DNA of 64,000 nt from Aldrovandia affinis. Its lineage: Eukaryota; Chordata; Actinopteri; Notacanthiformes; Halosauridae. The position numbers and the translations under genes were made by a program. The stretch covers positions 4,275,830 through 4,339,829 of the forward strand of contig JAINUG010000047.1 of NCBI GenBank assembly GCA_029706075.1, given 5' to 3'. This document shows, in pieces, positions 91-61,625 of the stretch (position 1 is the first letter of the stretch; each line of letters opens with the position of its first letter). Below the pieces are notes generated by a model that was given only the letters and a program-made list of their open reading frames with translations, was not told the DNA's origin and did no database searches.

Positions 91-227
91 GGATGGACTT
101 CCCTGTGGATGTCGTGGGCTCCTTGAGCCAAGAAGATCTGGAACGCTCTGCGGAGCATTACATGTCAGATCTTCTGTACAGCAACCCAGACAGGCCAGAG
201 CATTTCACACTGCCCAGCTCCAGACAG
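91..227 (+). CDS. FAM169A: FAM169A coding exon 1 (residues 1-45)
   Basis: The acceptor ends gtgtcgtag at 90, the ATG is at 93, and the donor gtaggag starts at 228. The exon has two untranslated bases before the start, so at least one further 5' UTR exon should lie upstream of the window. It encodes the conserved opening with SAEHYMSDLL. Confidence 0.9.
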
Positions 228-6200: not shown

Positions 6201-9200
6201 GGCAATCAACATTAGAAGAAGTTCCGTTTTGTAAAAAGGTTACAAAGTCGCCCCAGCATTGAACAAAAAGAAAAGGTTTTTCCTGAGATTAAACATGATC
6301 TTTTCTGAAGGCAAGTATGACGAGAGCTCTTTAAGCCATAGAGATACACTAGGAGGCTCCTCACTTTTCCAACGAATGGCTATACATTTATTAGCCGCAA
6401 TCATGGCTAATCTGACAAAGCGAATATTGCCCCTCGAGTTAGCTGGTAACACTGAGTAATCTCCCAGTAGTGCCAATCTCGGGTTGATAGGAATCTCCAC
6501 CCCCACAATTGTTTTAGTAATATCCAAGATAGATCTCCAGTATTGCTCCAAACATTTACACGTCCAGAACATGTGTAAAAGAGACCCTGTTTCAGTCTTA
6601 CATCTAGGGCAATATTTTGAGTAGCTATTATTTATCTTATGGAGGCGTTGTGGTGTGAAGTAAACCCTGTGTATAAGGTTAAACTGTAGGAGTTTGTGTC
6701 GACTGTTATAGGAGAATGATTGAGAGCTATCACAGATTGACTTCCACTCGAGGTCCTCGAAAACATGATCAACATCCATTTCCCATTTAACTTTTGCGTT
6801 AAGAACTTCGCTACCTGCAAGGCTTGTGAGTTTGTTATAGACAAAGGACAGAAAACCTTTGGAATTAAGTTTTCTTGCATCATAGTATCTATTTGAAAGT
6901 CTTCTAAAGGGGCAAGTCTCCCCCCCTGCTGTACTCTGACATAATCTCTAACTTGTAGATATTTAAAAAAATGTGCCGAAGGAAGCCCCAGAGAGGATTT
7001 CAGTTGTTCAAAGGACATCATTTTGTCGTGCTCGTACAGGTGACCGAACGTGCATATACCTCTGCTATACCAGTCTCCAGTTATGCCATCTCTTAATGCC
7101 CCGGGTAAAACAGGATTAAAATGGAATGGGGTAGACCTGTATATTGTACGGACACTTTGAAACTTTACTCTAATATCATGCCATATTTTAGAAGTATATT
7201 TTATCAATGGATTTTGAGTCACATTTCTCTGGCTGTGATAGGAGGGAATAAATGGAATACTGGACAGCACTTCTGATGTGTGAGATTGTTCAATTTGTTT
7301 CCATGCCGGAGGGTGTTCTAAATTTTTATCCATATCCAAATAGCTCTGGATTGAGCCGCCATATAATATAGCCGAAAGTCAGGTAGATTTAGCCCTCCTT
7401 GTTCATTGGAACGGCAGAGGGTTTTGAGCTTGACTCTCGGAACTTTACCGTTCCACAGGAAACGAGAGATCCGACTATCCAAATTTTTAAAGAAGACTTT
7501 TGGGATTGGTGTTGGAAGCGCTTGGAATAAGTAAAGAAATTTGGGTAGGATATTCATTTTAATACAATTTATTCGTCCAATTAGGGATATAGGTAGAGAC
7601 TTCCACCTTTCTAAATCTATTTCCATTTTTCTAAACAGAGGGTCATAGTTAAGGGAGAAAATTTGGTCTAGTTGGTTGGGTATTTGCAGGCCAAGATAAC
7701 AGAGCTTGAGGGGTTCCCAACGAAAGGGGATATTTTCCCTTGATAGTTCTCGGGCGGCTGCATTGAGAGGCATTATCACACTTTTCTGTGTATTTATTTT
7801 ATAACCAGAGATGCAGCTATATTCGTCTAATAGGATGCTAACGTGGTACTTTGTTTACTTGGTGCACAAACCATCTGTTCAGGTCGGCACAAGCGGCACA
7901 TGCCGTTTTGTGTGCCGGATTTAAATGGAGTGGACATGACGCCCAAGCGGCACAAACTGGCATTGTGCCGGTCGGGTTTTGGAACGGATCCAATGATAAG
8001 CGAGCGAGATAGGCGCAAGGCATAATGTTTCATGATGACTGACTGCTAATAAACCATGCTAGTGCTAGCCACTATGAGGGCTTATCATGGGTCATCAAGA
8101 CCCCCCCGCCCCCAAAAAAGAAGAAAACATCAGATCTACACAAATCTCGGGTTGATGCTTTCTGATCTGGGAAAAGCGGAAATCCATGTATCCGCGGAAT
8201 GCTTTCATCACTGATTTATTGGACATGAAGTATCAAAACAGCAAAACACAATTTGATACATTAATGAACAATAACTGTATATGTGAATGCATGTGTGTAT
8301 CTGTGAGTGTGTGTGCGTGTGTGGGGCATGTTTGAACACAAGCTTGATGAAGCACATGGCCGTGCATGTGTGTGTGTTCTCGAGCGTGCATGGGTGCAAG
8401 TGCATGCATGCTTTAAGTACATGGGCATCGAGACAAAGAGACAAGATGGAGAGAATTTTAAATCTAGGTTGTAACCAAGGTAAAATAAAAGATGGCGCTT
8501 ACTGCGCACACCAGAATAACTGTGGAGTTATTGCGTATGTTGAGATCGGAATGCCGGGTTAGTAGATAAAAATGCATGCAAGACCTGGGTCTATGTGTGG
8601 TGTATTTTATCACTAACACAGGCAGTCAGTGAGCAGCTATGCTAACTACAAAAACAATGCTAAACACAATGGTAAGCACAGTCATGAACCATAATACATT
8701 TTAAAACAGTTTGTACATTCAGTCATGAATATAAAATGTCCGTTGCTAAACTATGCTATGCCCAGATGCTACAGCCTTACTTTGTTGTTTGCTCCGTGGT
8801 CGGCAGGAAAACTGAGGAACAGAGAGAGAAATGGCGAATACTCTTTGGTTTTATTTGTTGTGTTGTGGTACGCATTTCCGCTTGTACAGTATCATCACTG
8901 TACGTGGAAATACGATCCTAGGAGGTGGGGCCGAATGACATCATCGGGATTCCCTTCTGGAACAACTGTTTGTCAAGAAGTTGGATGCGTGGTGGAGGAA
9001 CCTTAAGCACTCAAAATTATATGAATTGAAATTGCATTTCAAGCATATAATTTTATGTGGAATGTGCAGTCCCTACAAATTCATTAAAGATTTTATTAGA
9101 ACCATGTTGAAGCAGGAAACGTGCCATCCATTGTTTTCTTTCTTTCTTTATTTGATTTTGTTTTTGAAGGAAAACCTTAAGTAGAACAATGTGAATCATT

Positions 9201-12200
9201 TCTGAATGTGCTTGCCAGAAAGTATCTCCTAATGCAGTGGTCTCAAACTCAGTGCTATGGAGGGCCATGTGTATGTTGGTTTTTTGGTTCCATTATTTGC
9301 TAAACTATCCTGTTGGCTGGCACATAATGCATACAAAGTGAAAGTAGTTATTTTTGTCATTTAAATAACAATTGTTGCCTATATTCTGTGCTTTGACTTG
9401 AAAAATACATATGGCTGAATGCATAGTTCAATTCAATTAAAGCAGCAGTAATTGGTTGGAATGAAAACCTGCATAATATGGCCCAACATGGCACTGAGTT
9501 TGAGACCACTGTCCTTATGTATTAGATAATAATCCCAGATCCCATTATAATTGTTGCTGCTCAGTGCATGTTTTATGTTAGTTGGGAAACCCTACTCATG
9601 ATGCGTTCTATCTCTCCCATAGGCAGCTTGTGTAGTAGCTTCATGAGCCAGTGCTATCAGCTTCCTGTCATGGATTCCGTATTTGTCAGGAAGGCCCACC
9701 GTGGAAATGGACATGGCCTTCGGATTCTGGAAGACTTTGTGGATTGTTTCAAAGAGGAGGCTCTTGGTTTAAAATACCCTCTCACACCAGCCATGTACAG
9801 AGGTAGGAAACAATATTGGGATCATACTGCATGGTATTATGTATTACATTTACATTTGACATTTTAAGCATTTAGCAGACGCTCTTATCCAGAGCGACTT
9901 ACAAGATGTGCATTATTAAATGCCCTGACTTACCCTACATATAAAGTTTATTTGATTTGATTTAATTTAATAATAATTACATAGGATGCCAAAATATAGA
10001 ACTCACGAATCAGTTAAAATGAAGAGCTAGTTTATTATTAAGTTTACAACATTAAATTTATTGTAGAGATGAAATTAAAGGGACATATACCAAACCAAGC
10101 TTGTCTCTCCCAAATACAAGCAGCCAGAAACAAATAAAAAATGAGTGCCATACTGTGAGCCAGGACAATATTGCAACCAAAAAAACGTCACTCCAGAGAA
10201 TAGTTAGTGAATTAGAATTAGAATGACCAAATAGCCATCAACAGGCCACACTTTAAGTGTCTGAAGAAGGGGGGAACACTTCTCTCTTCCTAGCCCATGC
10301 ATGATTAATTTATGGTTAGGGAAGGACTATAGAAAGTCTGGTCTGTCCTCTTTATAATTTAATTTTGGGTCAATTGACAACTTAACAACACAAAACACAT
10401 TTTCATGGGTATCATTGAAATTATGTTCTCATGACATTACTGTGTTGGGGTTTGGGGAAGACAAGTTTGTACAGAGATGTTAGTTGAGCCACTATGTTAG
10501 GGAACTACCTAAAGCAATGAATGTACCAAGTAGAAAGTTAGCATGCATGACAAAGCTGGGTAGGGTGGAGCCTCTAGAGCAGGTAGGGAGAGAGAGTTTG
10601 GTGACGGTAGGGCGCAAGCATAGAAAAGGATGCGCACATGCAGGGGTGGCATCTCCAGAGTTTGTGGTGTCCAACCGATTCCAGCCCTTGCAGGAAGAGG
10701 ATCTGGCCCAGCCCTCTGTGAGTGGGAGGACTGACTGGGCAGCCTGGCAGCCACACCACCCAGGAAAATGAAAAGGGAGTTAGTCATAGTGGGGTACTCA
10801 ATTACTAGATGTGTAGACAGTATAGTCTGTTTGCAGGAATAGGAGTCTCGAATGGCATGTTACCTGCCTGGTGCCCAGGTCGGAGACCGGGCAAGCTCCT
10901 GGCCAGATCAGGGGTGGATCCAGTGGTCATGGTCCATGTTGGAGCCAGTGACATAGGTAAGGGTAGGTTTGAGGTTCTGCAGGACATAATTTATAGAATT
11001 AGGATCAAAGTTAAGGAGCAGAACCTCTACGGTGGTCTTCTTGGTAATTCTGCCAGTACCACATGCTAGTAAAGGGAAGCAGAACTTTATATGGAGATTT
11101 AACATGTGGCTTCAAACCTGGTGTAGAAAAGAAGGGCACAGGTACACTGGGACTCCTTTTGGAACAGGGGTGACCTGTACAAGCGGGATGGGTTAGACCT
11201 GAACCGGAGGGGTACAGCTGCATTGGGCCAGTATATGCTTAGGGTAGCGGAGAAATATTTAAACTAGGGACTGGGAGGGCAGGGAGGGGAATTAGTAGTA
11301 GTATTAAGGATAGGGAGGTACAGACTGCCCACATGGAAGATACCAGGGTGGAGTATAATAATAACTGTGATGATATAATTAATAAAGATCTTTTACACCA
11401 TAATATGAATAGAGGTGTTTTGGCACAGTTATGTGTGGAGGGGAAGGAAAATATAAGTATGCGTAAGGCTCTGAAGTTCCTGTGTTTGAATGCTTTTGGA
11501 ACTAGAGGCTGTCATGTTTAATGGGGGTTATGTTATCGTTGGTATTACAGAAACATGACTTGGTGCAGTGGATGGGGATGAATATAATGTGGAGGGGTAC
11601 AAATTGTTTAGGAAGGATATAACTAATAAAAGAGGAGGGGGAGTGGCCCTTTATGTGAAAGACAATCTTATTGTGCAGGAAATTCCAGGAATTAACTAAT
11701 TCCTTGTGACATCTGGATTAGACTACTGGGAGATCATGAGAAGAGCCTTAATATAAGAGTACATTATAGACCACTAGCTTCTGACAGCAACATAAATACT
11801 ATGCTCTATGGTAACATAAAACAAGCCTGTGTGGAAAGAGAGATGTTAATAATGGGCGACTTCAATTACCCCTCTATTAATTGGGAAGTAGTGTCAGGTC
11901 AGGGTAAATGTGAAGAGGAGTTTTTAGATGTGGTTAATGACTGCTTTTTGGTACAGTCTGTTACTCAGCCTACGAGAGGGAAATCAATACTGGATCTGGT
12001 TTTGTGTAATAATCCTGACTGAATTTGCACAGAGGTAATAGAACCACTAGGGACAATTAATCATAGTGCAGTTACTTTTGATATTTTTTGGCAAGTCAAG
12101 ACAGCCTCCTCTAACTCTAGAATTTTTAACTTCAGACATTAATAAAATGAGATAGAATTTAAGTAATATAGATTTGGTAAAACTTCTAGATTGCAGAACC

Positions 12201-15200
12201 GTGAATAATAATAAAAATACTACATTTAAAAGGGTTATTGTAGATGTACATGTCTCCACAGTGGATGACTAAATCTTTACGGGAGATTTTGAAGCAAAGG
12301 AAGCAACTGTACAGAGCTAACATACTAAATAGTTATTTTGTTGAGAGGTTTACCAGAGAAGAGGTTATAAATATGCCTAAATGTATAGCCAATGTGCAAT
12401 GCTTTGGAGGGCTTTGAGATAAGTGATGTAGAAGTACTACAAAAACAACAAAAAATAAGGCAGCAGGCCCTGATGGCATATATCCCCCATATAGTGCTCA
12501 TACTATAACTTGGGGAAATTATATATAAACCATTGACAGATATTGTTATGCAATCCATAAACACTGGGGAAATACCATGACTGGAAGCAGAGTAGCAGAG
12601 TGTTGACTACAAAGTGTTTTGACCTGAACCAGGCCTATGATATTATATATTTGGTCTTTCAAAATGTATTTGACAAGGTACCATATGGGAGGCTCATTGT
12701 TAAAATGAATTCAGTAGGAATTACAGGAGTTGTTTCAGAGTGGGTTCATAATTGGCTGCAAGGGCAAATACAAAGAGTAACAGTAGGTCGGGTTGTGTCT
12801 GACCTAGGTGCTGTCGGCAGTGGAGTCCCGCAGGGCTCAGTGCTGGGACCTCTGCTCTTCCTTATTTACATAAATGATCTTGATACGGATGTTAGTAGCA
12901 AAATAGTTACATGTGCAAATGATACTAAACTTGGGGGTTTGGCAAACAGTTTGGAATCAACAAAATTAATCCAAGATGATTTAAACAAAATCCAAGATTA
13001 GGCAGAAACATTGCAGATGACATTCAATATTGCTAAATGTAAAGTTATGCATGTGAGAAATAAAAGCATAAAACCGGATTAGGAGAGGAGAAAAATTAGT
13101 AGGTGTTCAATTTGAAAAATACTTAGGATTTGTAGTTGATCAAAGTCTATCTGCATCTTAGCAGTGTGCTACAACAGTGAAAAAGGCCAACAGGATGCTT
13201 GGATACCTAGCAAAAAGTATTGAGTATAAATCAAAGGAGGTTATATTAATGTTATATGATACCTTTGTCAGACCTCGCTTAGAGTACTGTGTGCAGCCCT
13301 TGGCACCACACTACAGGAAAGATATAGAAACTCTTGAAAAAGTTCAAAGAAGGGCAACTAAATTGGTACCTGGTATGAAAGGATGAGGATAGACTTAAGG
13401 CACTCAACCTATTTAAACTTAGTAAACAGAGACTTAGGGGGATTTGATTGAGGTTTTTAAATTCCTAAAAGGGATTAACAAAGTGAACTACCATAGATTT
13501 TTAAAGATACATTTGGTTAGTAGAATAAGAGGCGGAAATTAGTGAAAGGCAAATTCCACATGGATATTAAGAAGTATTTTACAGAGAGTTGTCAATGCAT
13601 GGAACAGCTTGCCAGGTCAGGTAGTAGAGGCAGAAACACGTGGGCTATTCATGTCCAGGCTAGATAGATGCAGTAGATACTCTTTAGATTAGGAAATGAT
13701 GAGCCTATATGGGCTGAACGGCCCATTCTCGTCATTATGTATTCTTACGTTCTTATGTTCTTAAGTAGCAAGACCAGTAGAAACACTAGACCTCCACTAC
13801 TGGGGTGTGGGGTGGCCTGACCCATAATTTCCAACATAGCACTCGTGGATAGAATCAAAATTGCAATGTGAGGTGTAGGAGGGGTAATGTATTGTGTGCT
13901 AGAGTGGGGATTGGTGACACTCACACCATACACACATACATGGACACACACCTCACATGAATTGCAGAGCACTGAGGTTTTTATCATTCAATCATTGTCT
14001 AAGCATATATCCAAATACACAATCTAATGTAGTACAAAGTAACTTTATGAAGTAAATGAATAAGAGAGTCTTCTATCTCTCTCTCCAGTGTGTGGGCAGT
14101 ATCTAAACACTTACCCAGCAGACAGGGAGTTGCTGTGGGAGGTTGAGAGTGTGGGAGGCCCTTTCCAGAGGTCTCCAATTGCCAACAAGATCCAAACAAT
14201 GACTTTTAGAGGTAAGGAAGCTCAGGGTATGGAATTACCCGTGACGAGCACCGTGTTTATTAAAGTGCTCCAAAAATGATTCCAATTGATTCATATTCTT
14301 CTGATGCTCATAAGTACATGTTTGCCAGCAGAGGATTCGTCGTCTTTGGTTGAAGAATCAGCCCAGACTGAAGTGGTGATGGAGGAAGAATCCATAAAAG
14401 GAACTGTGACACCATCTTTCGAGTTCACGGTATATTCTATTGTTTTACCATCAAGAACTTTCTTTATTTTTTTATTTCTTAAATTCAATGAAGCTAGAGG
14501 AAATGATATAATAATGGAGGATAATGTTAGGTAGTAACACAGTACAATAGCTCACTCTGTGGTCTTCATTTATGTAATTACATCTATTTGACAGATCTTT
14601 GTCTTTGGAATATGACATTTTACAATTATGTATAATGTAATTTTACTGGATGATTTCTTTATTGCCCACAATTTGTATCAGTTATCAAAACTATTTTCTG
14701 AATGTATTTACCTAGTGCTACGTTATTGTCACTTTGTTTGCGATGCAGGAAGAAGTGGTGATTGTTAATAAGCATATCAAAGTGGCAGAAGGCAAGTATT
14801 TCTTCTCAATAACAATGGATTACAAGTTGCCAAAATGTTGCTGGTTTTCTGCAAACCACTATAACAAGCTGTTCCGAATGTTGTTCTGGGAAATTGAAAT
14901 TGATAGATGAATTGGAATGTCACTAATTTGACTGCTGTATGACACTTAGATTCTTAGAAATGTAATTCTGTTTGCAAAATGAAATGTGCCTCCAAACATT
15001 TTTGAACACTGTACAGTCCAATGCAGATCGAGTTTTATTCTCTAAATGGATGTTCAACCTCTTGTTTCAGGCATTAAAGACACACCTGTCTCAACACGCA
15101 CCAGGAGTACCGAGTTCAGACGCAAGAGATTGAGAGAAGAAACGGTTGAAGTTGTTGAAGAAAGCCTGCCAGACAAAATCAACAGGTAACTTTTCTCTTT

Positions 15201-18200
15201 TTAAACATCTTAAATTAATTTCCCAATGTTTCCCAATGGATGGACAATTTCCAATTTTTTCTTCAAATAAAGTGGATATTCTGGGACTGCTCTTGTGTCA
15301 GTTGATTCCGCCACAACTAATAGACTTTGGCTGACTGGAGAATCAGCTGTGATGTGTGTCGTTCAGGGTGGAGGAAACTGAAGCGGTGGTGGAAGCTCCT
15401 GCTATGGAGCTGGTGACTGATGAGCCAGTGGAGGCGAAGGATAAGGAACCAGGCGCTGATGACGAGGAAGTGGAGGACACTGTGGCCCCACAGGAAGAGG
15501 CCAGAGAGGAAGAGGGAGCCCTGGTGAGGAATCACTTTACTTAAAGCAGCCTGAGGCCTGTGGCAACATTGCAAAAATAGCCTGCATAATTAATCAACAT
15601 CATAAATGTTGTTTTCAGTATTCAGGCAGTGCCTTCAAAGTATTACCTTTAACTAAGATCTCCCCATCCTTTCATGATATGTTCCACCCTTTGCTGTTAT
15701 CTTCATTGTTTTGCCATTTTCATATCTAATTTGACAAATGTACATATCCATCTGCACAATGCATTAAGATTAGATGCTGTACTTACTATCTGGAATCCAC
15801 TATAAGCACAATCTTTATTCAAGGATCTTGAGTTTCTTGTCACTCTCACTGTGTGGAGGCAGGGGTTTCAATGGGACATTGATTGGGGTGGTCTTACAGG
15901 AAGTGGAGCCACTAAAAAAGATGGAGGTGGAGCCCATGAATGGCAATGTGATGACTAACGATGAGACGAAGGAGGGGGCAGTCTCTCAAGACTTGGGGGA
16001 GCCAGCTTGTGTGCAGGAAAATGATATTCAGGTGGTCATGAAGGGCCAGGAGGCTGTTGATCTGGACAATCAGGTACAGGTATGGGATAGCTATTTTTTG
16101 TCTAGTATTGACAGTCTTTAAAATGTTAACCTGACATTAATATTCATTTTGCGGAAATAAGGTGGTTAACAGTGTTTCAAATTTCAGTCACAATATAATG
16201 GAAGATAAAAATGGGGAGTCTGTAGTATTACCTTGTCAAGAGTAATAGCTATAGATGTCATGTGCTAAAAGACGTTTATTTCTGTTCCATTCGTGTTCTG
16301 TTCATATTGTGAGTATGATATACATTTATAGAGTATCATTCTCTCTGATATTCAGGGTACTGTCAATATAGTTACTGAAGAAGTGACTAAAGACTCTGCA
16401 GAACAGCAGGTCTCCCCAGAGGTGGAGTCTCCCCTAGGAGAAGCTGCAGCACCATTGGAGGATGCTAACTCAACCAAACCTGTAGCAGTGCCTTCAGATG
16501 TCATGGCAGAAGAAGAGGAGATGGTTGAGGAAGTGTTGAGCACTGAAGCTGCTCCTCTAGAGGAAACAGAAGCTCCAACCAAGTCTGGTCCTCAGGGAGA
16601 AGATGTACAGGAGGAGGCAGATGGGGACGTTACTGAAGAGACCCAGGTCCCCATGGACTTCTGCCAGAATGTTGTACTGCATGTTGGCCTGAAGAAGGTC
16701 TCCTATCAACCATCTGAGAAAGGTGGGAATGACCAAATAGTACCTGAGGTTGAGAAGACGTTGCAAAAGGAGGGTAGTGAAGAAAAGGTGGAGAAAATGT
16801 CTGAGGAGGATGAAGTGGAGGAAGAGGTGGAAGAGGAAGAGGAGGATAAAGAGGTTCATGCAGATGCATCTCCACTTGTGGACAGGAGAGCTCTTCGGAG
16901 GAAGACAGAAGTAACGCCTATACGTAGATCCAAACGAGTCTGCAAACGATCACTGGAGGATGATAACGACCAAGCAACAGCAGAGGAGAAGGCTGAAGAA
17001 AAGGCTAAGGTGGCAGTTGAGGGTGCAGTTGTGGACAGGAGAGTTTTGAGGAGGAGGACATTGATTATCACAACAACACCGAAACGCAAATATGAACGAC
17101 GCAGCAATTCACAACTGAAGGGTGGGAAAGACCAAGCAGAAGTAGAGAAGGAAGTGGAGGAGGAGTCTCCAGTGGTGGAAAGGAGAGTTCTGAGAAACAG
17201 GACACCTGTCAAAAAAGCATTTGTTTGTAGATCCACACGACTTAGCAAAAAACTGCAAAAGGAGAACGAGAGTGACCAAGAAGCAGAGTCAGAAAAAGAA
17301 GAAGAAAAGGACTGGGTGGATAAGGATGAAAAGATGGAGGAGGCTGTGGAGGAGGGAAAAACTACTGAAGCAGATGAGGCTCCATTGGTGGAAAGGAGAG
17401 TTCTGAGGAACAGGACACTTGTCAAAGAAACATCTACACGTAGATCCAAACGACTGAGCATACAACAACAGAAGGAGGACAAAAGTGACCAAGTGGAGGA
17501 GGAAGAGGAAGATGGAAATGTGGAGGAGGAAGGGAAAAAACTTGAGGAGAACAAGGAAGAAGCTAAAGAAAATGCTGCAGAGAAAAAGGAGGGAGAGGAA
17601 GAAGAAAAAGAGGAAGAGAAGAAAGAGGAGGAAAAGGTAGAAGAAGCATTGACGGTGGAGGAGGAAAAGGTAGAAGAAGAAGGTAATGTGGTAATGGAGG
17701 AAAAATTGGCAGATGAGGTTGAAAAGGTGGCAGATGGGGAAAAGGTGGAGGAAAATGGTGAAAAGGTTTTGGAGGTGGGAAAATTGGAGGAAGAGGGTGA
17801 AAAGTTGGTAGTGGAGGAAAAGTTTAAGGATGAGGATGAAAATGTAGTAGTGGAGGAAGAGGAGGAAAGGGTGGTAATGGAAGAAGAAATGCATAGAGAG
17901 GAAGACAAAGTTGAAGAACATGCTGGAGAGAAAAAAGAGGGAGAGGAAGAGGAAAATGTCACACCAACAGAGGAGGAAGGAGAAGCTGCAGAAAAGAGCT
18001 CAGAAGAAACAGATGAACTACTAGTGCTGGAAGATAAAAACATGGAAGAGGAGATGACAGAGGAAAAGGAGGAAGAGGCAAAGGAAAAGGTGGAGGAAGA
18101 CAAAGATGTGGCAAAGGCAGGGGAAAATAAGGAAGAAAGCTCAGAAGAAAAAATGGAAACTACTGTTGAAAAAGAGGTGGTAATGGAAGAGGTAGAGAGA

Positions 18201-21200
18201 GGGGAGGAAAAGGTTGAAGAAACGGAGGGAGAGGAGGAGAAGCATGCGACATCAACTGAGAGAGAAGGAGAGGTGGCAGAAAGGAGCTCAGAAATGGCAG
18301 TTGAGCCTTCGGTTGTAGAAATTAGAGTTCTGAGAAGAAGTGCAAAAGTAGTCATTGAAACACCAAAACGTACATCCAGACGACTCAACAAACAACCACA
18401 AATGGAGAAAACAAATGCAGCAGTAGAGACAGAGAAGGTGAAGATGAATGAGGGAGAGGAAATTCTCACAACAATTGAGAAGGAAGCAGCGGTCATAGAC
18501 AAAGATGATGAGCCCCCAGTGGTGGAAACAAGAGTGCTCAGAAGGAAGATCAAAATAATCACTGTAACGCCACCTAAATTTAAATCCAAACAGCTTAGCA
18601 AAAAACCACAGAAGGAGAACAAGGATGACCAAGAATCAGCCAAGGAGCCAGAGGAAGAGGAAGAGGAAGATGAAAAGGTGGAAGAGAAGGAGGTAGAAAA
18701 AATAGTGGAGCAGGAGGAGCCAGAAAATGTGGAAGAGGAAAAGGTGGTGGAGGAGGAGGTGGAAAAGGTGGTGGAGGAGGAGGGAGATGTGGAGGAGGAG
18801 CTGAAAAAGGTGATTGAGGATGAGAGGGAAAATGAGGGTGAAGAGGAGGAAAAGATGGAGGGGGTAGCAGAGGAAAGGGAAGAGAAGAAGGAAGAAAAGA
18901 TGTTAGAGGAATGGGAAAAAATGGAGGAGAGGGGGCAGGTAGTGGAGGAGAGGAAAGAGATGGATGAGGAAGCAGAGGAAAGGGAGGAGAGGAAAACAAT
19001 TGAGGTGGAAGAAAAGGAAAGTGTAGTGGAGGAGGGTAAAGAGATGGAGGTGGAAGAAGAGGAAAGGGAGGAGGAGAAAGGGAAAGACAAAGCTGATGAC
19101 AACATTGGAGACAAAGAGGAGGCAAATTCAGATATGGAGCAAAATCTTATACAGGAATCAGTAGATATGGTAGAGGAACAGGGTGCACAGAAAAAGATTG
19201 ATGAAGTTGTTGAGAAGGAAAAAGAGGAAACTGAGACAGTGTTGACTACTGAGGAAAAAACACATGTTGAAGAAAATAGCTCAGATGAGGCAGACAAGCC
19301 TCCAGTGGTGGAAAGAAGAGTTCTGAGAAACAGGACACCTGTCCAAAAAACATCTGTTCGTAGATCCACACGACTTAGCAAAAAACAAGAGAAGGAGGAT
19401 GAAAGTGACCAAGCGGAGGAGGAAGAGCAAGAGGAGGGTGAAGAGGTTCATGCAGATCAATCTCAATTTGTAGACAGGAGAGCCCTTCGGAGGAAGACAG
19501 AAGTAATCACAGCAACGCTTATACGTAGATCTAAGCGAGTCTGCAAACAAGCAATGGAGGATAATGATGACCAAGCAATAGCAGAGGAAAAGGAGGAGGC
19601 TGAAGAAAAAGCCACAGTGGCAGTTGAGGGTGCAGTTGTGGAGAGGAGAGTTTTGAGGAGGAGGACATTGATTATCACAACAACACCAAAACACACGTAT
19701 GAACAAAGCAGTAAATTACAACTGAAGGATGGGAAAGACCAAGCAGAAGTAGAGAAGGAAGTGGAGGAGGAGTCTCCAGTGGTGGAAAGGAGAGTTCTGA
19801 GAAACAGGACACCTGTCAAAAAAGCATCTGTTTATAGATCCACACGACTGAGCAAACAACATCAGAAGGAGGACAAAAGTGACCAAGTGGAGGAGGAAGA
19901 GGAAGATATAAATGTGGAGGAGGACGGGGAAGAAACTGCAGAGGTGGAGGAGGAAGGAGAAAAACTTGAAGAGAACAAGGAAGAAGCTAAAGAAAATGCT
20001 GCAGAGAAAAGGGAGGGAGAAGAAGAAGAACGAATGGAAGAGAAGAAGGAGGAGGAAGAGGTAGAAGAAACAGTGATGGTTGAGGAGGAAAAGGTAGAAG
20101 AAGAGGGGGAAACCGTGGTAGTGGAGGAAAAGTTGGAGGATGAGGTTGAAAAGGTGGCAGATGGGGAAAAATTTGAGGAAAATGGTGAAACGGTTTTGGA
20201 GGGTGACAGAAAGGGTAAAGAAATAGAGGTGGAAGGAGAGGAAAGGGAGGAGGAGAAAGGGAAAGACAAAGCTGATGACAACATTGGAGACGAAGAGGAG
20301 ACAAATGCAGAGATGGAGCAAAATCTTATAAAGGAATCAATAGATATGGTAGAGGAACAGGGTGCACAGAAAAAGATTGATGAAGTTGTTGAGGAGGAAA
20401 AAGAGGAAACTGAGACAGTGTTGACTACTGAGGAAAAAACACATGTTGAAGAAAAGAGCTCAGATGAGGCAGACGAGCCTCCAGTGGTGGAAAGAAGAGT
20501 TCTGAGAAACAGGACACCTGTCAAAAAAACATCTGTTCGTAGATCCACACGACTTAGCAAAAAACAGCAAAAGGAGAACGAGAGTGACCAAGAATTAGCC
20601 GAGGAGCCAGAGGAAGAGGAAAATGTGGAGGAGGCTGAGGTAGAAAAAGTAGTGGAGGAGGAAAAGGTGGAGGAGGAAGAGGAGGAAGAGGGAAAGGTGG
20701 AGGAGGAAGAGGAGGTAGAGGAAAAGGTGGAGGAGGAAGAGGTGGAAAAGGTCATGGAAGAGGAAAATGTGGAGGAGGAGGTAGGAAAGGCAGTTGAGGA
20801 GGAGGTGGGAAAGGCGGTTGATGATGAGGGGGTAAATATGGGTGAAGAGGAGGAAAATATAGAGGAGGTACCAGAGGAAACGGAAGAGAAGGAGGAAGAA
20901 AAGATGTCAGAGGAAGGGGAAAAAATGGAGGAGAGGGTACAGGTAGTGGAGGAGAGGAAAGAAATTGAGGTGGAAGAAAAGGAAAGGGTAGAGGAGGAGG
21001 GTAAAGAGATGGAGGTCGAAGATGAGGAAAGGGAGGAGGAGAAAGGGAAAGACAAAGCTGATGACAACATTGGAGATGAAGAGGAGGCAAATGCAGAGAT
21101 GGAGCAAAACCTTATACAGGAATCAATAGATATGGTAGAAGAACAGGGTGCACAGAAATTGATTGATGAAGTTGTTGAGGAGCAAAACGAGAAAACTGAG

Positions 21201-22532
21201 ACAGCATTGGCAACTGAGGAAGAAACACATGTTGAAGAAAAGAGCTCAAATGAGGCAGAAGTGCCAGAGGTGGTGGAAAGAAGAGTTCTGAGGAACAGGG
21301 CAAAAGCAATCATTGTAACACCACCTAAACGTAGATCCAGAAGACAAAAAAAAAAAAAGCCAATGAAGGAATACAAGAATGACCAAGAATCAGCCAAGGA
21401 GTCAGATGAAGAGGACAAGGTGGAGGAGGAGGAGGCAGAGAAAGTAGTGGAGGATGAAAAGTTGGAGGAAGAGGAGGCAGAAAATGTCTTAGAGGAGGAA
21501 AAGGTAGTGGAGGATGAGGCAGGAAAGGCGGTGGAGGATAAAATGGTGGTGGTAGAGGAGGGGGAAATGGTTGAGGATGAGGGGGGGAAGCTGGTGGAGG
21601 AGGAGGCTGTGGAAAAATCAGAGGCTGGGGAGGAGGAGCATGTGATGCAGGAGAAGGAAAAAACAACAAAGGCAGGTGAAGAGGTGATTGTGATATTGGA
21701 GGAGAAAGCACCACCTGAGGAAGAGGGAGAAAATATGGAGGTGGGGACAGCAGAAAAAGTGGTAGAGGAGGAGGACCACATGGTAGAGGAGGAAACTGAA
21801 AGAGCGGTGCAACAGGAACACACAGAGGAGGAAATGGCAGTGGAGAAGGGAGAGGAGGAGGATATTATAGAGAACGGGGGGAATATAGTAGAGGAAATTA
21901 TGGAGGGGGGAGGAGATGACAAGCTCAAAGAAAATGATGGGGCGGCAAAAGGAGAAGAAGTCACAGCAGAGTCAGAGGGGGCTGTAGCAGACAAAAATAC
22001 AGAGGGGGAGATGGAAGGAGAAGTGGGAAAAAAAGAGGATGAAAATGTTGAGCAGGAGGAAAAGATCGCAGAGATGGAAAAGACAGAAGCCATGGAAGAA
22101 AAGATGAAAGATGAGGATAAAATTGAAGAAATTGAAGAGATGGCAGAGGAAGAAAAGGAAGAGGCCGAAATGGAGAAAGAACCAGAAGCGGAGAAGACTT
22201 CGATAGCTGGAGAAGATGGAGGAGAACAGCTTTTGCAGCTCCAGAGCTCGGATGAAGCAGATGAGCCTCCAATGTTGAAGAATCAAGCTCGGAAGAGAAA
22301 GGTGAATGTAAGCATGGCAACACAGAGGCGTAGATCCAAAAGGGTCAGCAACCAAACATCAGAAGAGTCGGAGGAAGAGAAGGCTGAAGAAATGGATGAG
22401 GAAGAAAAGGAGGCCACATCCTCTGAGGAGCATGTACCAGAAAAGCCTGTGAAAAGAAGAAGGTCACAAAGAAAGGGAAAAATTGTTGATATGACACCCC
22501 AACGCAGATCAAAGCGCCGCAGCCGGACCTAA
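93..22532 (+). CDS. FAM169A: FAM169A (SLAP75, soluble lamin-associated protein), giant form with expanded C-terminal repeats; 12 exons
   Basis: Spliced CDS: 93-227, 1493-1592, 1678-1763, 2206-2377, 9623-9802, 14089-14211, 14332-14429, 14749-14791, 15071-15185, 15367-15523, 15900-16073, 16356-22532. Every junction keeps frame, which strongly supports the model. The start Met follows an acceptor AG at 89-90 and begins MDFPVDVV, matching the mammalian N-terminus MAFPVDML. Residues 46-265 carry family landmarks such as VGFVPLYG, LALFAPED, ALYLVDQWW, LGERIVLYVLNRI and ELLWEVE. The tail from about residue 299 is acidic. Human FAM169A (about 670 residues) was found as a lamin-A-proximal nuclear protein; its biochemical role is unknown. 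The predicted length here is about 2,519 residues because the last exon is hugely expanded with Glu/Lys-rich sequence and repeated basic modules. The orthology call is secure; the complete transcript and any upstream non-coding exon are not visible. FAM169B lacks such a tail and is less likely. Confidence 0.93.
228..1492 (+). other. FAM169A: FAM169A intron 1
   Basis: GT-AG intron. It contains one tRNA-derived SINE (939-1327); the rest is unremarkable AT-rich DNA. Confidence 0.85.
939..1327 (-). mobile_element. tRNA-derived SINE
   Basis: Read on the minus strand it starts with a tRNA-like head: A-box-like gtgtagcagtaagg, then the B box ggtttgattcc. A body of about 200 bases and an AT-rich tail follow. 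The insertion is flanked by the direct repeat cagtgcatg at 930-938 and 1328-1336. A 139-codon minus-strand frame across it is incidental. Confidence 0.75.
1493..1592 (+). CDS. FAM169A: FAM169A coding exon 2 (residues 46-78 plus 1 nt)
   Basis: A polypyrimidine tract ending ccaaaag precedes 1493, and the donor gtaatc starts at 1593. It encodes ISLSLSTVGFVPLYGADLK and LALFAPED, nearly identical to mammalian FAM169A. It ends in phase 1. Confidence 0.9.
1678..1763 (+). CDS. FAM169A: FAM169A coding exon 3 (residues 79-107)
   Basis: The acceptor is tgttcag at 1677 and the donor gtacat at 1764. It completes a split Ala codon and reads AVALYLVDQWWAVEDILKT, a family signature. The intron before it is only 85 bases. 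Confidence 0.9.
2206..2377 (+). CDS. FAM169A: FAM169A coding exon 4 (residues 108-164 plus 1 nt)
   Basis: The acceptor is gcttctag at 2205 and the donor gtaatt at 2378. It encodes the most conserved part of the family (LGERIVLYVLNRIVYR, then EVPFLCHS, DYAKILW and EAIGFYSVKP). Confidence 0.92.
3445..3956. repeat. Long inverted repeat (arms of about 150 bp, spacer of about 200 bp)
   Basis: Sequence from about 3445-3595 (tgaatcacagactgatg ... aaccaatcaca) recurs as its reverse complement at about 3808-3956 with very few differences. One arm runs into the transposase fragment, so the upstream arm is a duplicated, inverted piece of the element. Confidence 0.85.
3947..4162 (+). pseudogene. hAT transposase C-terminal fragment
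   Basis: It encodes FERTFSALKRIKTYARNTTG followed by RLSALASMAIE, the characteristic hAT C-terminal dimerisation motif (E-R-x-F-S-x-L-x-x-I-K). The upstream catalytic part is missing, replaced by the inverted-repeat DNA of the element. Confidence 0.75.
4335..4820. repeat. Inverted copies of a repeat unit shared with 62880-64000
   Basis: 4339-4478 (gtctgttcggtttgttttt ...) is matched by its reverse complement at about 4740-4817. The part at 4480-4755, read in reverse, is collinear with 63045-63135 plus 63784-63960. It is part of the hAT element at 3385-4932 and probably part of that family's normal sequence. Confidence 0.7.
5729..7840 (-). mobile_element. 5'-truncated L1-type LINE
   Basis: On the minus strand, overlapping frames (7779-7318, 7339-6632, 6779-6240) encode the C-terminal part of an L1 ORF2: WKSLPISLIGRINCIKMNILPK, SRISRFLWNGKVPRVKL, and a terminal C-x2-C ... 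H-x-F-W-T-C knuckle. Frames are joined by frameshifts, so it is dead. The 3' end is AT-rich with a poly(A), seen as T-runs at about 5726-5741. The direct repeat acgtggtacttt at 5717-5728 and 7841-7852 is the target-site duplication, proving one retrotransposition event with 5' truncation. Confidence 0.9.
9235..9511. mobile_element. hAT-type MITE, 277 bp
   Basis: Terminal inverted repeats of about 20 bp (cagtggtctcaaactcagtg and its complement) bound a non-coding, AT-rich body. The flanking 8-mers tcctaatg (9227-9234) and tccttatg (9512-9519) match at 7 of 8 positions, a slightly decayed target-site duplication. Confidence 0.85.
9623..9802 (+). CDS. FAM169A: FAM169A coding exon 5 (residues 165-224, GNAT-like loop)
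   Basis: The acceptor is ctcccatag at 9622 and the donor gtaggaa at 9803. It contains DSVFVRKAHRGNGHGLRIL; R191-G-N-G-H-G196 resembles the acetyl-CoA pyrophosphate loop (R/Q-x-x-G-x-G/A) of GNAT acyltransferases. It follows a 7.2-kb repeat-rich intron. Confidence 0.92.
9850..9915 (-). mobile_element. SINE 3'-tail fragment
   Basis: It contains tttagcagacgctcttatcc and agagcgacttac, the reverse complement of the conserved 3' tail shared by many fish tRNA-derived SINEs. Only the tail is present. Confidence 0.6.
10440..13763 (+). mobile_element. CR1-clade LINE, near full length but inactive
   Basis: ORF1 remnants (about 10770-11260) include VIVGYSIT and DLNRRGTAALGQYMLRVAEKY, typical of the esterase-like ORF1 of fish CR1 elements. 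ORF2 remnants give the endonuclease segment IMGDFNYPSINWE (11801-12022) and the reverse transcriptase (12600-13001) with [20 protein letters not shown]. The catalytic FADD motif reads CAND, losing the first Asp. A C-terminal piece with MLYDTFVRPRLEYC lies at 13177-13386. The 3' end has the 8-bp tandem ttcttatg-like repeats common in CR1/L2 LINEs (13741-13763). Many stops and frameshifts are present. The 5' boundary is uncertain. Confidence 0.82.
12600..13001 (+). pseudogene. CR1 LINE reverse-transcriptase fragment
   Basis: It encodes RT palm motifs: AYDIIYLVFQNVFDKVPY (F/AFDxVxH region), [20 protein letters not shown] and TCANDTKLGG. The active-site Asp pair is mutated (N-D). The frame is closed on both sides by stops. 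Confidence 0.8.
14089..14211 (+). CDS. FAM169A: FAM169A coding exon 6 (residues 225-265)
   Basis: The acceptor is tctctccag at 14088 and the donor gtaagg at 14212. It encodes QYLNTYPADRELLWEVESV, matching the mammalian QYFEKYPGDHELLWEVEGV segment. It is the last exon of the globular N-terminal half. Confidence 0.9.
14332..14429 (+). CDS. FAM169A: FAM169A coding exon 7 (residues 266-298)
   Basis: The acceptor is ttgccagcag at 14331 and the donor gtatat at 14430. It encodes an acidic linker (EDSSSLVEESAQTEVV...). Sequence similarity to mammals is low; the call rests on splice signals and frame continuity with exons 6 and 8. Confidence 0.75.
14749..14791 (+). CDS. FAM169A: FAM169A coding exon 8 (43-nt micro-exon, GC donor)
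   Basis: The acceptor is gcgatgcag at 14748. The only suitable donor is gcaagt at 14792, a GC-AG intron whose flanking bases (aag|gcaagt) otherwise match the U1 consensus. It encodes EEVVIVNKHIKVAE. Its phase fits exons 7 and 9 exactly, but the exon is short and could be alternatively spliced; skipping it would break the frame of exon 9. Confidence 0.65.
15071..15185 (+). CDS. FAM169A: FAM169A coding exon 9 (residues 313-350)
   Basis: The acceptor is cttgtttcag at 15070 and the donor gtaact at 15186. It encodes TPVSTRTRSTEFRRKRLREE, a short basic segment reminiscent of the basic modules later in the tail, then an acidic stretch. Confidence 0.75.
15367..15523 (+). CDS. FAM169A: FAM169A coding exon 10 (residues 351-403)
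   Basis: The acceptor is gtcgttcag at 15366 and the donor gtgagg at 15524. It encodes a Glu/Asp-rich, Pro/Ala-containing linker and ends in phase 0. Confidence 0.75.
15900..16073 (+). CDS. FAM169A: FAM169A coding exon 11 (residues 404-461, tandem donor)
   Basis: The acceptor is gtcttacag at 15899. It contains EPMNGNVM, matching the mammalian EPMNGEIM, which anchors this linker to the family. Two in-frame donors lie 6 bases apart (cag|gtacag at 16074 and cag|gtatgg at 16080), so isoforms differing by two residues (VQ) are possible. Confidence 0.8.
16356..22532 (+). CDS. FAM169A: FAM169A terminal exon, 2,058 codons of acidic sequence with repeated basic modules
   Basis: The acceptor is gatattcag at 16355 and the TAA stop is at 22530-22532, with no stop in between over 6.2 kb. 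The protein is dominated by Glu, Lys and Val, with runs such as VEEEKVEEE suggesting long charged helices or disorder. Into this are set basic modules of the form V-V-E-R-R-V-L-R-x-R-T, about 10-15 residues, then R-R-S-T/K-R-L-S-K-K. Human FAM169A ends with one such element (PVVDRRNLRRKAKG), so the exon is homologous but multiplied. The extreme C-terminus (TPQRRSKRRSRT) is again basic. An intact frame through thousands of repeat bases argues that it is translated. Collapse or over-expansion in the assembly cannot be excluded. Confidence 0.9.
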   Translation, partial: GTVNIVTEEVTKDSAEQQVSPEVESPLGEAAAPLEDANSTKPVAVPSDVMAEEEEMVEEVLSTEAAPLEETEAPTKSGPQGEDVQEEADGDVTEETQVPMDFCQNVVLHVGLKKVSYQPSEKGGNDQIVPEVEKTLQKEGSEEKVEKMSEEDEVEEEVEEEEEDKEVHADASPLVDRRALRRKTEVTPIRRSKRVCKRSLEDDNDQATAEEKAEEKAKVAVEGAVVDRRVLRRRTLIITTTPKRKYERRSNSQLKGGKDQAEVEKEVEEESPVVERRVLRNRTPVKKAFVCRSTRLSKKLQKENESDQEAESEKEEEKDWVDKDEKMEEAVEEGKTTEADEAPLVERRVLRNRTLVKETSTRRSKRLSIQQQKEDKSDQVEEEEEDGNVEEEGKKLEENKEEAKENAAEKKEGEEEEKEEEKKEEEKVEEALTVEEEKVEEEGNVVMEEKLADEVEKVADGEKVEENGEKVLEVGKLEEEGEKLVVEEKFKDEDENVVVEEEEERVVMEEEMHREEDKVEEHAGEKKEGEEEENVTPTEEEGEAAEKSSEETDELLVLEDKNMEEEMTEEKEEEAKEKVEEDKDVAKAGENKEESSEEKMETTVEKEVVMEEVERGEEKVEETEGEEEKHATSTEREGEVAERSSEMAVEPSVVEIRVLRRSAKVVIETPKRTSRRLNKQPQMEKTNAAVETEKVKMNEGEEILTTIEKEAAVIDKDDEPPVVETRVLRRKIKIITVTPPKFKSKQLSKKPQKENKDDQESAKEPEEEEEEDEKVEEKEVEKIVEQEEPENVEEEKVVEEEVEKVVEEEGDVEEELKKVIEDERENEGEEEEKMEGVAEEREEKKEEKMLEEWEKMEERGQVVEERKEMDEEAEEREERKTIEVEEKESVVEEGKEMEVEEEEREEEKGKDKADDNIGDKEEANSDMEQNLIQESVDMVEEQGAQKKIDEVVEKEKEETETVLTTEEKTHVEENSSDEADKPPVVERRVLRNRTPVQKTSVRRSTRLSKKQEKEDESDQAEEEEQEEGEEVHADQSQFVDRRALRRKTEVITATLIRRSKRVCKQAMEDNDDQAIAEEKEEAEEKATVAVEGAVVERRVLRRRTLIITTTPKHTYEQSSKLQLKDGKDQAEVEKEVEEESPVVERRVLRNRTPVKKASVYRSTRLSKQHQKEDKSDQVEEEEEDINVEEDGEETAEVEEEGEKLEENKEEAKENAAEKREGEEEERMEEKKEEEEVEETVMVEEEKVEEEGETVVVEEKLEDEVEKVADGEKFEENGETVLEGDRKGKEIEVEGEEREEEKGKDKADDNIGDEEETNAEMEQNLIKESIDMVEEQGAQKKIDEVVEEEKEETETVLTTEEKTHVEEKSSDEADEPPVVERRVLRNRTPVKKTSVRRSTRLSKKQQKENESDQELAEEPEEEENVEEAEVEKVVEEEKVEEEEEEEGKVEEEEEVEEKVEEEEVEKVMEEENVEEEVGKAVEEEVGKAVDDEGVNMGEEEENIEEVPEETEEKEEEKMSEEGEKMEERVQVVEERKEIEVEEKERVEEEGKEMEVEDEEREEEKGKDKADDNIGDEEEANAEMEQNLIQESIDMVEEQGAQKLIDEVVEEQNEKTETALATEEETHVEEKSSNEAEVPEVVERRVLRNRAKAIIVTPPKRRSRRQKKKKPMKEYKNDQESAKESDEEDKVEEEEAEKVVEDEKLEEEEAENVLEEEKVVEDEAGKAVEDKMVVVEEGEMVEDEGGKLVEEEAVEKSEAGEEEHVMQEKEKTTKAGEEVIVILEEKAPPEEEGENMEVGTAEKVVEEEDHMVEEETERAVQQEHTEEEMAVEKGEEEDIIENGGNIVEEIMEGGGDDKLKENDGAAKGEEVTAESEGAVADKNTEGEMEGEVGKKEDENVEQEEKIAEMEKTEAMEEKMKDEDKIEEIEEMAEEEKEEAEMEKEPEAEKTSIAGEDGGEQLLQLQSSDEADEPPMLKNQARKRKVNVSMATQRRRSKRVSNQTSEESEEEKAEEMDEEEKEATSSEEHVPEKPVKRRRSQRKGKIVDMTPQRRSKRRSRT
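16851..17560 (+). repeat. Higher-order duplicate, copy 1 (paired with 19443-19985)
   Basis: The segment from EVHAD through modules 1-4 to NKEEAKENAAEK recurs downstream. The start offset is 2,592 bases (864 codons). The end offset is 2,424 bases because copy 2 lacks an internal piece (one VERRVLRNRT module). Near-identity over most of the length indicates a fairly recent in-frame segmental duplication. Confidence 0.8.
19060..19386 (+). repeat. Three-copy block, copy A (KADDNIGD ... RNRTPV)
   Basis: It encodes EREEEKGKDKADDNIGD, then MEQNLIQES, MVEEQGAQKKIDEVV and a basic module. It is almost identical to the blocks beginning near 20239 and 21025; the offsets of 1,179 and 786 bases are both multiples of three. 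Confidence 0.85.
19443..19985 (+). repeat. Higher-order duplicate, copy 2 (paired with 16851-17560)
   Basis: It repeats EVHAD, then the modules VDRRALRRKTEV, VVERRVLRRRTLIITTTP and VVERRVLRNRTPVKKAS in the same order as copy 1, followed by NKEEAKENAAEK. It has one module fewer than copy 1. The reading frame is kept. Confidence 0.8.
20239..20567 (+). repeat. Three-copy block, copy B
   Basis: Second copy of the KADDNIGD block, ending in the module VVERRVLRNRTPVKKTSV. It differs from copy A at a few codons. Confidence 0.85.
21025..21300 (+). repeat. Three-copy block, copy C
   Basis: Third copy of the KADDNIGD block. It diverges from the others inside its basic module (RNRAKAIIVTPPKRRSRR), where it resembles the module at 18519, suggesting exchange between modules. 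Confidence 0.8.
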
Positions 22533-26603: not shown

Positions 26604-27955
26604 TCAATCAATCAATCAATCTTTATTTTTGTATAGCGCCATTTACAAACAGGTTGTCACACAGCGCTTCACAATTGGCATTTTCCAGAGGGAATCAAAA
26701 AACCAGAAAACCATTGGAGCCAATGTGGGAGACTGGAATATTATTCCCTGACCCCTTAAAAGGCTGTCGAGATGAACTCCTGGAAAATTGTGGGATACAG
26801 AGAAAAACAACACAAATAGTCCTTGAGGCTCATGTGGCTTAACAGACCACCGGAAGGGCATTGTAAGTGTAGGAGTGGGGTGGACCTCATCCCTCCAGAT
26901 ACCAGGGCAGGGCGGGGGATGGAACCAGCAGCTAGGGTCTGGGGCCAGCGGCATCCGGCCAACACATGGCAGGGGTGGGGGGTTGACTCTGGGGCAGGTG
27001 AGCTCCGGGCAGGTGCCACGAAGCCGGGGGAGAAAAAGGAAAGGTGCAATTATGACTATGATAAATATCACACCGGATCAGGGGAAGAGTAGTGATAACA
27101 CTTTTGCACCAGCAGAAGTAATCTAGGGCAGCATAACTAATTAGGTGAGTGGCACAGGAGCACGCAGCCATGAGGGCACTCAGAGACCATCCCACCACAT
27201 CATCAGCAGTCCTGATAGGGGCGGATCATCACTTATGATTGGTGACAGTAAGGATAGCTCATTGCACCAGAAGGCTCTATTGCTACGCCCCCTCCACATC
27301 TGCACCTAATGACTATAAGAGAGACTAAAGAGATGTGTTTTTAACCTAGACTTGAAAATTGAGACCATGTCTGACTCCTTCACAGAGATGGGTAGACTGT
27401 TCCACAGTAAAGGAGCTCTATAGGAGAAAGCTCTGCCACCTGCTGTATTTTTTGATATTCTAGGGACTACCAAGTTGCCTGCATCTTGTGAGCGAAGTGA
27501 ACGTGGGGGATTGTACGGATGAAGTAGATCCGTCAAGTAAGAGGGTGCAAGTCCATGCAACACCTTATAAGTTAAGAGGAGTACCTTATAGTCTACACGA
27601 TAGTTTATAGGAAGCCAGTGAAGTGACGCTAACACAGGACTAATGTGCTCATATTTATTTGTTCTAGTCAGGATCCTTGCAGCAGCATTCTGTACGAGTT
27701 GTAGGCTCCTGAGTGAGGCATTGGAACAGCCAGACAGTAATGCATTGCAATAATCTAATCTAGATGTAACAAAGGCATGTACCAATTTTTCTGCATCTAT
27801 TAATGACAGGATGCCCCTAATTTTGGCAATATTCCTCAGGTGAAAAAAGGCTACTCTGGAAATGTTTTTGATGTGACTATCAAATGAGAGACCAGGATCT
27901 ATAGTAACACCAAGTTAGTAGAAACATATGCCCCCCTGCATTGTATTAGACCTTG
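26604..27955 (-). mobile_element. 5'-truncated L2-type LINE
   Basis: The minus-strand frame 27785-27306 encodes the end of an L2 reverse transcriptase: VTSRLDYCNALLSG, LQLVQNAAARILTRT, LHWLPINYRVDYK, APLLWNSLP and FKSRLKTHLFSL. The 3' end on the minus strand terminates in tandem gatt/attg units (aatcaatcaatcaatc on + near 26606), as fish L2 elements do. The 5' limit near 27955 is approximate. The coding fragment is open for 159 codons, so the insertion may be fairly young. Confidence 0.82.
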
Positions 27956-33239: not shown

Positions 33240-33771
33240 CAGTACCAGTCAAAAGTTTGAGTACACCTTCCATCTGGATTACGGCTAATCGGGCACTCCT
33301 TCATTTTTCAGCAAGATAACAACATGAAACACACCTCAAAGTTGTGCAAGAACTATCTGGTGAAGGAGGAATGTGAAGGACAACTCAAACTAATGACCTG
33401 GCCTGCCCAGTGTCCAGACCTCAATCCCACAGAACTTGTATGGGATGAACTGAACAGAAGCGTCAAAGCAAAGCAACCCACAAGTGTCTCTGGAAATTGC
33501 TGTAGAATAGCTGGGAAGACATATCGGGTGATTTCCTGCTGAAACCTAGTAACGGCAGTTATCACGGCAAAGAGTGGCTATTTTGAGGAAGCCAAGATTC
33601 AATTTTCAATTCAATTTTCTTGCACATTGGTTTGATGTTCCTTTTGTTTATTTTTACATGTGTTTTTTCTAATATTCAAGTTTTTACATAAACTTATACG
33701 ATCTAAAACATTGTCAATTATGAGATAACCCTAGTTTCCAGCAGGTGTACTCAACCTTTTGACTGGTACTG
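33240..33771 (+). mobile_element. Internally deleted Tc1-like element (532 bp)
   Basis: The ends are mirror images: cagtaccagtcaaaagtttg at 33240 and its near complement ending ggtactg at 33771, each next to a TA dinucleotide. The interior keeps only the transposase 3' part (33303-33580), including a remnant of the QQDN...H block and CPDLNPTELVWDEL, which carries the final acidic catalytic region. The DNA-binding half and the first catalytic Asp are gone. Confidence 0.85.
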
Positions 33772-35615: not shown

Positions 35616-35627
35616 GGTTCAATGAAA

Positions 35628-37418: not shown

Positions 37419-41126
<3,708 letters not shown>

Positions 41127-60098: not shown

Positions 60099-61625
<1,527 letters not shown>

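Follow-up and report, generated by a model that had tools for sequence, protein, structure and literature searches.

The window, a stretch of 64,000 nucleotides, carries a FAM169-type gene of 12 exons whose last exon holds 2,058 codons and an array of 14 basic modules separated by acidic spacers; as read from the sequence, the anatomy of the gene and of the module array is very probably as described here. The explanation we consider best, a FAM169A-type gene with a 14-block array forming a multivalent tail that would be tuned by CDK1, is given a probability of about 0.4 when all of its parts are taken together, and mostly passive growth of the repeats ranks as its equal rival.

The genome compared comprises 1.22 Gb in 2,576 contigs, and the window sits in a contig of 5.9 Mb. 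A protein search of this genome recovered two relatives of the window gene, on contigs C58 and C1911. The former, a paralogue at C58:87490-97764, has exons 1-6 of 135, 100, 86, 172, 180, and 123 nt, the same lengths as in the window gene. The exons of the window gene and an anchor used in the comparison of the last exons are as follows:

93-227, forward strand: exon 1, with ATG at 93; 135 nt, as in exon 1 of the C58 paralogue
1493-1592, forward strand: exon 2; paralogue counterpart of 100 nt
1678-1763, forward strand: exon 3; paralogue counterpart of 86 nt
2206-2377, forward strand: exon 4, in which the GNAT region begins; paralogue counterpart of 172 nt
9623-9802, forward strand: exon 5, GNAT region with RGNGHG; paralogue counterpart of 180 nt
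14089-14211, forward strand: exon 6; paralogue counterpart of 123 nt
14329-14429, forward strand: exon 7, in-phase join
14749-14791, forward strand: exon 8, followed by the GC-AG intron
15071-15185, forward strand: exon 9, 115 nt; paralogue counterpart of 112 nt
15367-15523, forward strand: exon 10, in-phase join
15900-16079, forward strand: exon 11; the paralogue exon starts similarly; alternative donor after 16073
16356-22532, forward strand: exon 12, the expanded last exon, 2,058 codons and a stop
16698-16709, forward strand: VSYQ anchor, matching ISYQ of the C58 paralogue

Joining the 12 exons gave a conceptual protein of 2,522 residues, uninterrupted by any stop; an earlier sequence-only reading had estimated about 2,519. 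Ten introns are of the GT-AG type and one, 3' of exon 8, is GC-AG (donor gcaagt). An alternative donor of exon 11, GTACAG after 16073, is in phase, and its use would cost two residues. The open frame spans 16332-22532, with coding from the acceptor at 16356 and TAA at 22530-22532. The claim of the same reading that this 6.2-kb frame is real and in phase with the eleven upstream exons was borne out. The other two forward frames of the exon contain 104 and 161 stops, and 1,075 of the 2,058 codons lie one step from a stop. A minus-strand frame of the last exon is open for 863 codons, and thus base composition alone strongly lengthens frames here. Nevertheless, a chance open frame due to low stop content was ruled out by a Markov null, since in sequences made from the exon the longest forward-strand open run was 217 codons at first order and 250 codons at second order (300 runs each).

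The name FAM169A for the window gene is our assumption, in keeping with the reported position of the GNAT domain. The names ENC1, for a BTB-BACK-Kelch gene at 35616-37394, 13 kb downstream, and FAM169B are likewise provisional; human FAM169A and FAM169B lie near ENC1 and KLHL25. The acetyl-CoA motif of GNATs has the consensus R/QxxGxG/A. In the alignment, examined by eye, the window gene has RGNGHG at this position, the C58 paralogue RGNGYG, and the C1911 relative RRRGIA, in agreement with the consensus and with a putative acetyltransferase activity. The Pfam profile Acetyltransf_1 matched residues 139-210 with 21.5 bits (cut-off 20.7) when a 265-aa fragment was used and with 20.1 bits, just below the cut-off, with a 464-aa query; a match at E up to 1 was obtained for all three family members of the genome. 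The matched region overlaps residues 120-230, where a report on mammalian SLAP/FAM169A places the GNAT domain (PMC10958201), which upholds the assignment of the gene to the FAM169 family. A basic module also stands at the C-terminus, weakly in the window gene (module 14, 4.5 bits) and with 28.9 bits in the C58 paralogue. A search of solved structures with the 351-aa N-terminus gave no match, the only matches to a profile built from the three relatives were two without significance (E 0.41 and, for an acetyltransferase, 0.86), and a search of viral contigs with the N-terminus gave 15 pattern matches and no relative.

The C58 paralogue and the window gene share 210 of 265 residues (79%) with dS 1.36 and dN 0.11, which corresponds to a dN/dS of about 0.08 for exons 1-6. 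Zebrafish genes are named fam169aa and fam169ab in two papers (PMC9210284, PMC6347452). This naming is consistent with two fish copies, and the C58 copy may be the second member of a fish co-orthologue pair. The C1911 relative is more distant (46% identity over the pieced part), and the module was absent from the three forward frames of 20 kb at this locus, with the last exon perhaps lying beyond that stretch. About 0.35 Mb separates the C1911 relative (C1911:11228660-11230772) from an ENC1-like gene at C1911:11582137, which is 77% identical to the ENC1-like gene of the window, as if an old FAM169-ENC linked pair had been duplicated in early vertebrates. No ENC1-like gene was found within C58:47001-87000.

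Several further features were observed in the neighbourhood. The BTB-BACK-Kelch gene is intact, consists of a single exon and lies on the same strand as the FAM169 gene, and a second copy on C2344 shows 96% identity over the 199 residues searched. LINE-like reverse-transcriptase fragments were recognised by eye at 6243-7854 (reverse strand, intron 4), about 11700-13000 (forward strand, intron 5), and 27309-27914 (reverse strand, downstream), and Tc1/mariner-like transposase fragments, also by eye, at 33261-33539, 43189-43701, 55927-56511, and 61183-61488. A perfect (GT)62 microsatellite occupies 40015-40139, and Ty3/gypsy-like retrotransposon frames (by eye) lie about 6 kb before the window begins, at C1989:4266642-4270011.

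A strict motif pattern occurs in 12 copies in the last exon, and all 11 spacings between them are multiples of three. An HMM built from these copies, which themselves score 67.8-87.5 bits, detected two diverged C-terminal modules and listed no match in exons 1-11. Thus, the count of about 12 motifs in the sequence-only reading stands for the strict copies, whereas the total is 14:

16875-16982, forward strand: module 1, strict pattern and HMM
17028-17135, forward strand: module 2, strict pattern and HMM
17172-17279, forward strand: module 3, strict pattern and HMM
17385-17492, forward strand: module 4, strict pattern and HMM
18312-18419, forward strand: module 5, strict pattern and HMM
18519-18626, forward strand: module 6, strict pattern and HMM
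19305-19412, forward strand: module 7, strict pattern and HMM
19470-19577, forward strand: module 8, strict pattern and HMM
19635-19742, forward strand: module 9, strict pattern and HMM
19779-19886, forward strand: module 10, strict pattern and HMM
20484-20591, forward strand: module 11, strict pattern and HMM
21270-21377, forward strand: module 12, strict pattern and HMM
22272-22379, forward strand: module 13, diverged, HMM 16.7 bits
22443-22529, forward strand: module 14, diverged and C-terminal, HMM 4.5 bits

The consensus over the 14 modules is pVVeRRVLRrrT...TPxRRSxRLSK. Each module comprises about 36 residues and is positively charged; identity to module 11 ranges from 30 to 84%, and in modules 13 and 14 much of the VVERRVLR core is gone. 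When positive blocks were defined by a 25-residue charge window with overlapping windows merged, the last exon contained 14, one per module and none elsewhere, and two weaker blocks lay upstream of it (residues 104-128 and 309-335). The modules account for 540 of the 2,058 residues of the exon. The spacers between them are 12-299 residues long, with a net charge per residue of -0.13 to -0.47; they are GA-rich and contain many short tandem repeats. The whole protein has a net charge of -433. The charge segregation, 0.227, was reached by none of 500 shuffles (0.138 +/- 0.008). All nine CDK1-type sites ([ST]Px[KR]) of the last exon fall inside modules, as do 14 of 17 [ST]P sites and 15 of 16 [RK][RK]x[ST] sites, counts that are not independent because the modules are copies of each other; the full T-P-x-K/R site is present in 9 of the 14 modules. 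In the C58 paralogue, three of the four CDK1-type sites are found outside the modules.

Searching the genome with the module scored 16 candidates, of which 13 matched at E up to 1; this exon accounts for 11 of them and the C58 paralogue for the other 2. An origin from a mobile element was rejected: when 16000-17000 was compared with the genome at the DNA level, a search that was not exhaustive, the matches off this exon were four of 41-61 bases on other contigs. A PH_3 match in the last exon (16.6 bits, cut-off 25) was taken as chance, an NCBIfam search of the exon yielded nothing, and a search of solved structures with the module found no match.

Comparison of the last exons localised the expansion. 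The C58 last exon, of 411 codons, contains two modules, the penultimate scoring 36.5 and the terminal 28.9 bits, which coincide with its two positive blocks. The exons align from exon residue 12 in the window gene and 157 in the paralogue through the VSYQ/ISYQ anchor. Between the anchor and the stop lie 1,944 residues in the window gene and 171 in the paralogue, while ahead of the anchor the paralogue is the longer, by about 126 residues (240 vs. 114); the excess of the window gene is therefore restricted to the part 3' of the anchor. The C58 modules are most similar to window modules 7 and 11 and less similar to the terminal module 14. The C58 exon carries an acidic short repeat of its own before the anchor, SPAEEEEQT, unlike the window gene. 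The sequence-only reading had set the array against mammalian FAM169A, a protein of about 670 residues with one C-terminal V-V-D-R-R-x-L-R motif. Within this genome the only comparator, the C58 paralogue, has two modules rather than one; two would then be the ancestral state as judged from one comparator, which could have lost some.

Self-comparison of the exon revealed the following duplicated blocks:

16804-17280, forward strand: block A1 (modules 1-3), 86% identity to A2
19393-19887, forward strand: block A2 (modules 8-10), copy of A1
18507-19337, forward strand: block B1 (module 6, a long spacer, and the start of module 7), 77% identity to B3
20472-21302, forward strand: block B3 (module 11, a long spacer, and the start of module 12), copy of B1

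In addition, the end of a spacer together with module 7 matches the sequence leading up to module 11 (82%). At the level of sequence, these copies show that in-frame duplication of blocks within the exon built part of the array. The dS of the five block pairs is 0.13-0.29, so those duplications that can be dated occurred after the two paralogues had separated (dS 1.36), although gene conversion among the repeats could make them look younger than their true age. Since identity to module 11 varies between 30 and 84% across the modules and the dates refer to block pairs alone, the array as a whole cannot be dated, and part of it may be older than these duplications.

Amino-acid constraint on the tail was assessed with a pooled test that keeps the substitution types and that included three pairs, A1-A2, A1b-A2b (bounds slightly moved), and B1-B3; because the comparisons overlap, the value computed for B1-B2 was kept out of the pool and B2-B3 was left aside. 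There were 65 synonymous changes between copies where 51.2 were expected (P=0.011), and 1 stop-making step, defined as a single base difference that alone makes a stop in the first copy, where 9.1 were expected (P=0.0005). The modules alone gave P=0.17 for the synonymous and P=0.044 for the stop-making changes and the spacers alone P=0.014 and P=0.0015; constraint did not differ between modules and spacers (Fisher P=0.88), and the idea of the modules as a specially conserved unit was thus unsupported. Individually, two of the five block pairs fell below P=0.05 for the synonymous excess and two of the five for the stop-making steps. The dN/dS between block copies was 0.42-0.59, and a shifted frame gave a lower value than the true frame in two of five pairs (A1-A2, 0.51 vs. 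0.57; B1-B2, 0.49 vs. 0.59); these figures ignore transition bias, and the null that keeps substitution types was therefore relied on instead. Indels were dropped as a coding test because they carry little information in sequence of such low complexity; in free nucleotide alignments, 13 of 27 gaps had lengths divisible by three. The low number of stop-making steps and the modest synonymous excess suggest that the frame has been kept open and that the protein is weakly constrained, with the modules not singled out. The proposal of the sequence-only reading is thereby divided: the expanded last exon with multiplied basic patches stands, whereas an adaptive innovation is not favoured by weak constraint that is no stronger in modules than in spacers.

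In the mechanism that we propose tentatively, and hold somewhat doubtful on its own, the tail would be disordered and would work by multivalency. According to two reports, mammalian FAM169A is lamin-associated at the nuclear envelope, and overexpression of SLAP in HEK293 cells made nuclei less stiff and mitosis longer (PMC10958201, PMC5053326). The GNAT region and this reported association would put the protein close to both lamins and chromatin. There, the basic blocks might bind acidic partners, assumed to be nucleic acid or other proteins with acidic stretches, and the acidic spacers would separate the blocks and bind basic partners, assumed to be histone tails or neighbouring tails. A study of charge blocks reports that Ki-67 droplet formation increases with repeat number and that phosphorylation shifts charge blockiness up in Ki-67 and down in NPM1 (PMC9106583). 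As the blocks of the window gene alternate before any phosphorylation, phosphates on the threonines of basic blocks would lower blockiness, in the NPM1 direction. CDK1-type phosphorylation of T-P-x-K/R in the modules could thus weaken the blocks in mitosis and lead to release, as reported for NPM1, and an increase from 2 to 14 blocks would raise avidity and condensation and alter nuclear-envelope mechanics. The loss of much of the core in the two C-terminal modules counts against this mechanism, and the equal constraint on modules and spacers does not favour the module as the selected unit. An unlikely extension is that a Ki-67-like charge-block scaffold evolved independently, in which a nuclear-envelope protein with a 14-block, CDK1-tunable polyampholyte tail would set chromatin-envelope cohesion or nuclear stiffness, with the sister gene keeping the ancestral two blocks.

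Just as plausible as the preferred explanation as a whole is that purine-rich repeats in a tolerant, disordered tail were multiplied mostly passively by unequal exchange or slippage, with only the open frame and acidity kept and little or no function added by the extra modules. The GA-rich spacers with their many short tandem repeats, the wide range of spacer lengths (12-299 residues), and the different short repeat SPAEEEEQT in the C58 exon are in line with such growth, as are the dN/dS of 0.42-0.59 between blocks, compared with about 0.08 for exons 1-6 between paralogues, and the lack of additional constraint on modules. However, the copies differ by 1 stop-making step where about 9 would be expected (P=0.0005), and all 14 modules remain positive blocks. 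A different use of the same charges, with the modules serving mainly as many nuclear-import signals or the protein having a histone-chaperone-like acidic tail and the lamina being irrelevant, would accommodate both the basic cluster in each module and the net charge of -433; since one or two import signals are normally enough, we regard it as improbable.

An artefact of assembly or of the gene model, that is, a misassembled array or transcripts with a much shorter last exon, appears slightly less probable still. Assembly stutter of identical copies is ruled out by the divergence between copies, as block pairs differing by dS 0.13-0.29 are not the same reads placed twice, and the window lies inside the 5.9-Mb contig. 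Sites that might permit internal splicing do occur: 8 of the 282 internal GTs score at least 7 of 9 as donors (real donors 6-8), and 61 of 992 AGs, including 22247 at 0.69, are at least as pyrimidine-rich as the weakest real acceptor. In a control stretch, however, 54% of 2,333 AGs reach the same level, and joining two of the better sites, donor 16722 and acceptor 22247, would remove 5,524 bases, nearly the whole array, and shift the frame. AATAAA and ATTAAA are absent from the forward strand of the exon, and the frame has been kept open. Judged from these sites, splicing inside the last exon is unlikely. The least probable alternative is that the Glu/Lys spacers form rigid single alpha-helices acting as rulers between modules: although E and K make up 44-54% of five long spacers, opposite-charge pairs from i to i+4 were not clearly above shuffled values in any of the five (P 0.10-0.82), and the spacers are strongly net negative.

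Among known systems, mammalian FAM169A/SLAP75 (soluble lamin-associated protein of 75 kDa) resembles the window gene in having a GNAT-like region in the N-terminal half; it differs in having about 670 residues and one motif, against 2,522 residues and 14 modules. The C58 paralogue shares the lengths of exons 1-6, the last-exon anchor, and a basic module at the extreme C-terminus, but has a 411-codon last exon with two modules. FAM169A is barely studied, and one genome with 2-block and 14-block versions offers a natural test pair, which could show if a disordered nuclear protein behaves as it does owing to how many charge blocks it has rather than to their precise sequence. Among the literature matches listed for FAM169A/SLAP75, fish included, no paper title concerned a repeat expansion of FAM169A.

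The repeats of Ki-67 are described as disordered, encoded in one large exon, phosphorylated by CDK1, highly variable in copy number in vertebrates, and under mild purifying selection (PMC8354752), and as forming alternating charge blocks (PMC9106583). The window gene is similar in that its charged repeats all lie in one large exon, are under weak purifying constraint, and contain predicted CDK1-type sites. In contrast to Ki-67, neither residues 1-464 nor the last exon gave a Pfam match to FHA, a GNAT region is present at the other end, the module sequence differs by eye from the quoted Ki-67 motif, and the alternation of blocks precedes any phosphorylation, which is closer to NPM1. Single-exon growth of charged repeats in nuclear proteins is thus already known from Ki-67, while this gene and this scale are new as far as our searches go, and the pair of paralogues bears on whether Ki-67-style repeat growth within one exon recurs in evolution.
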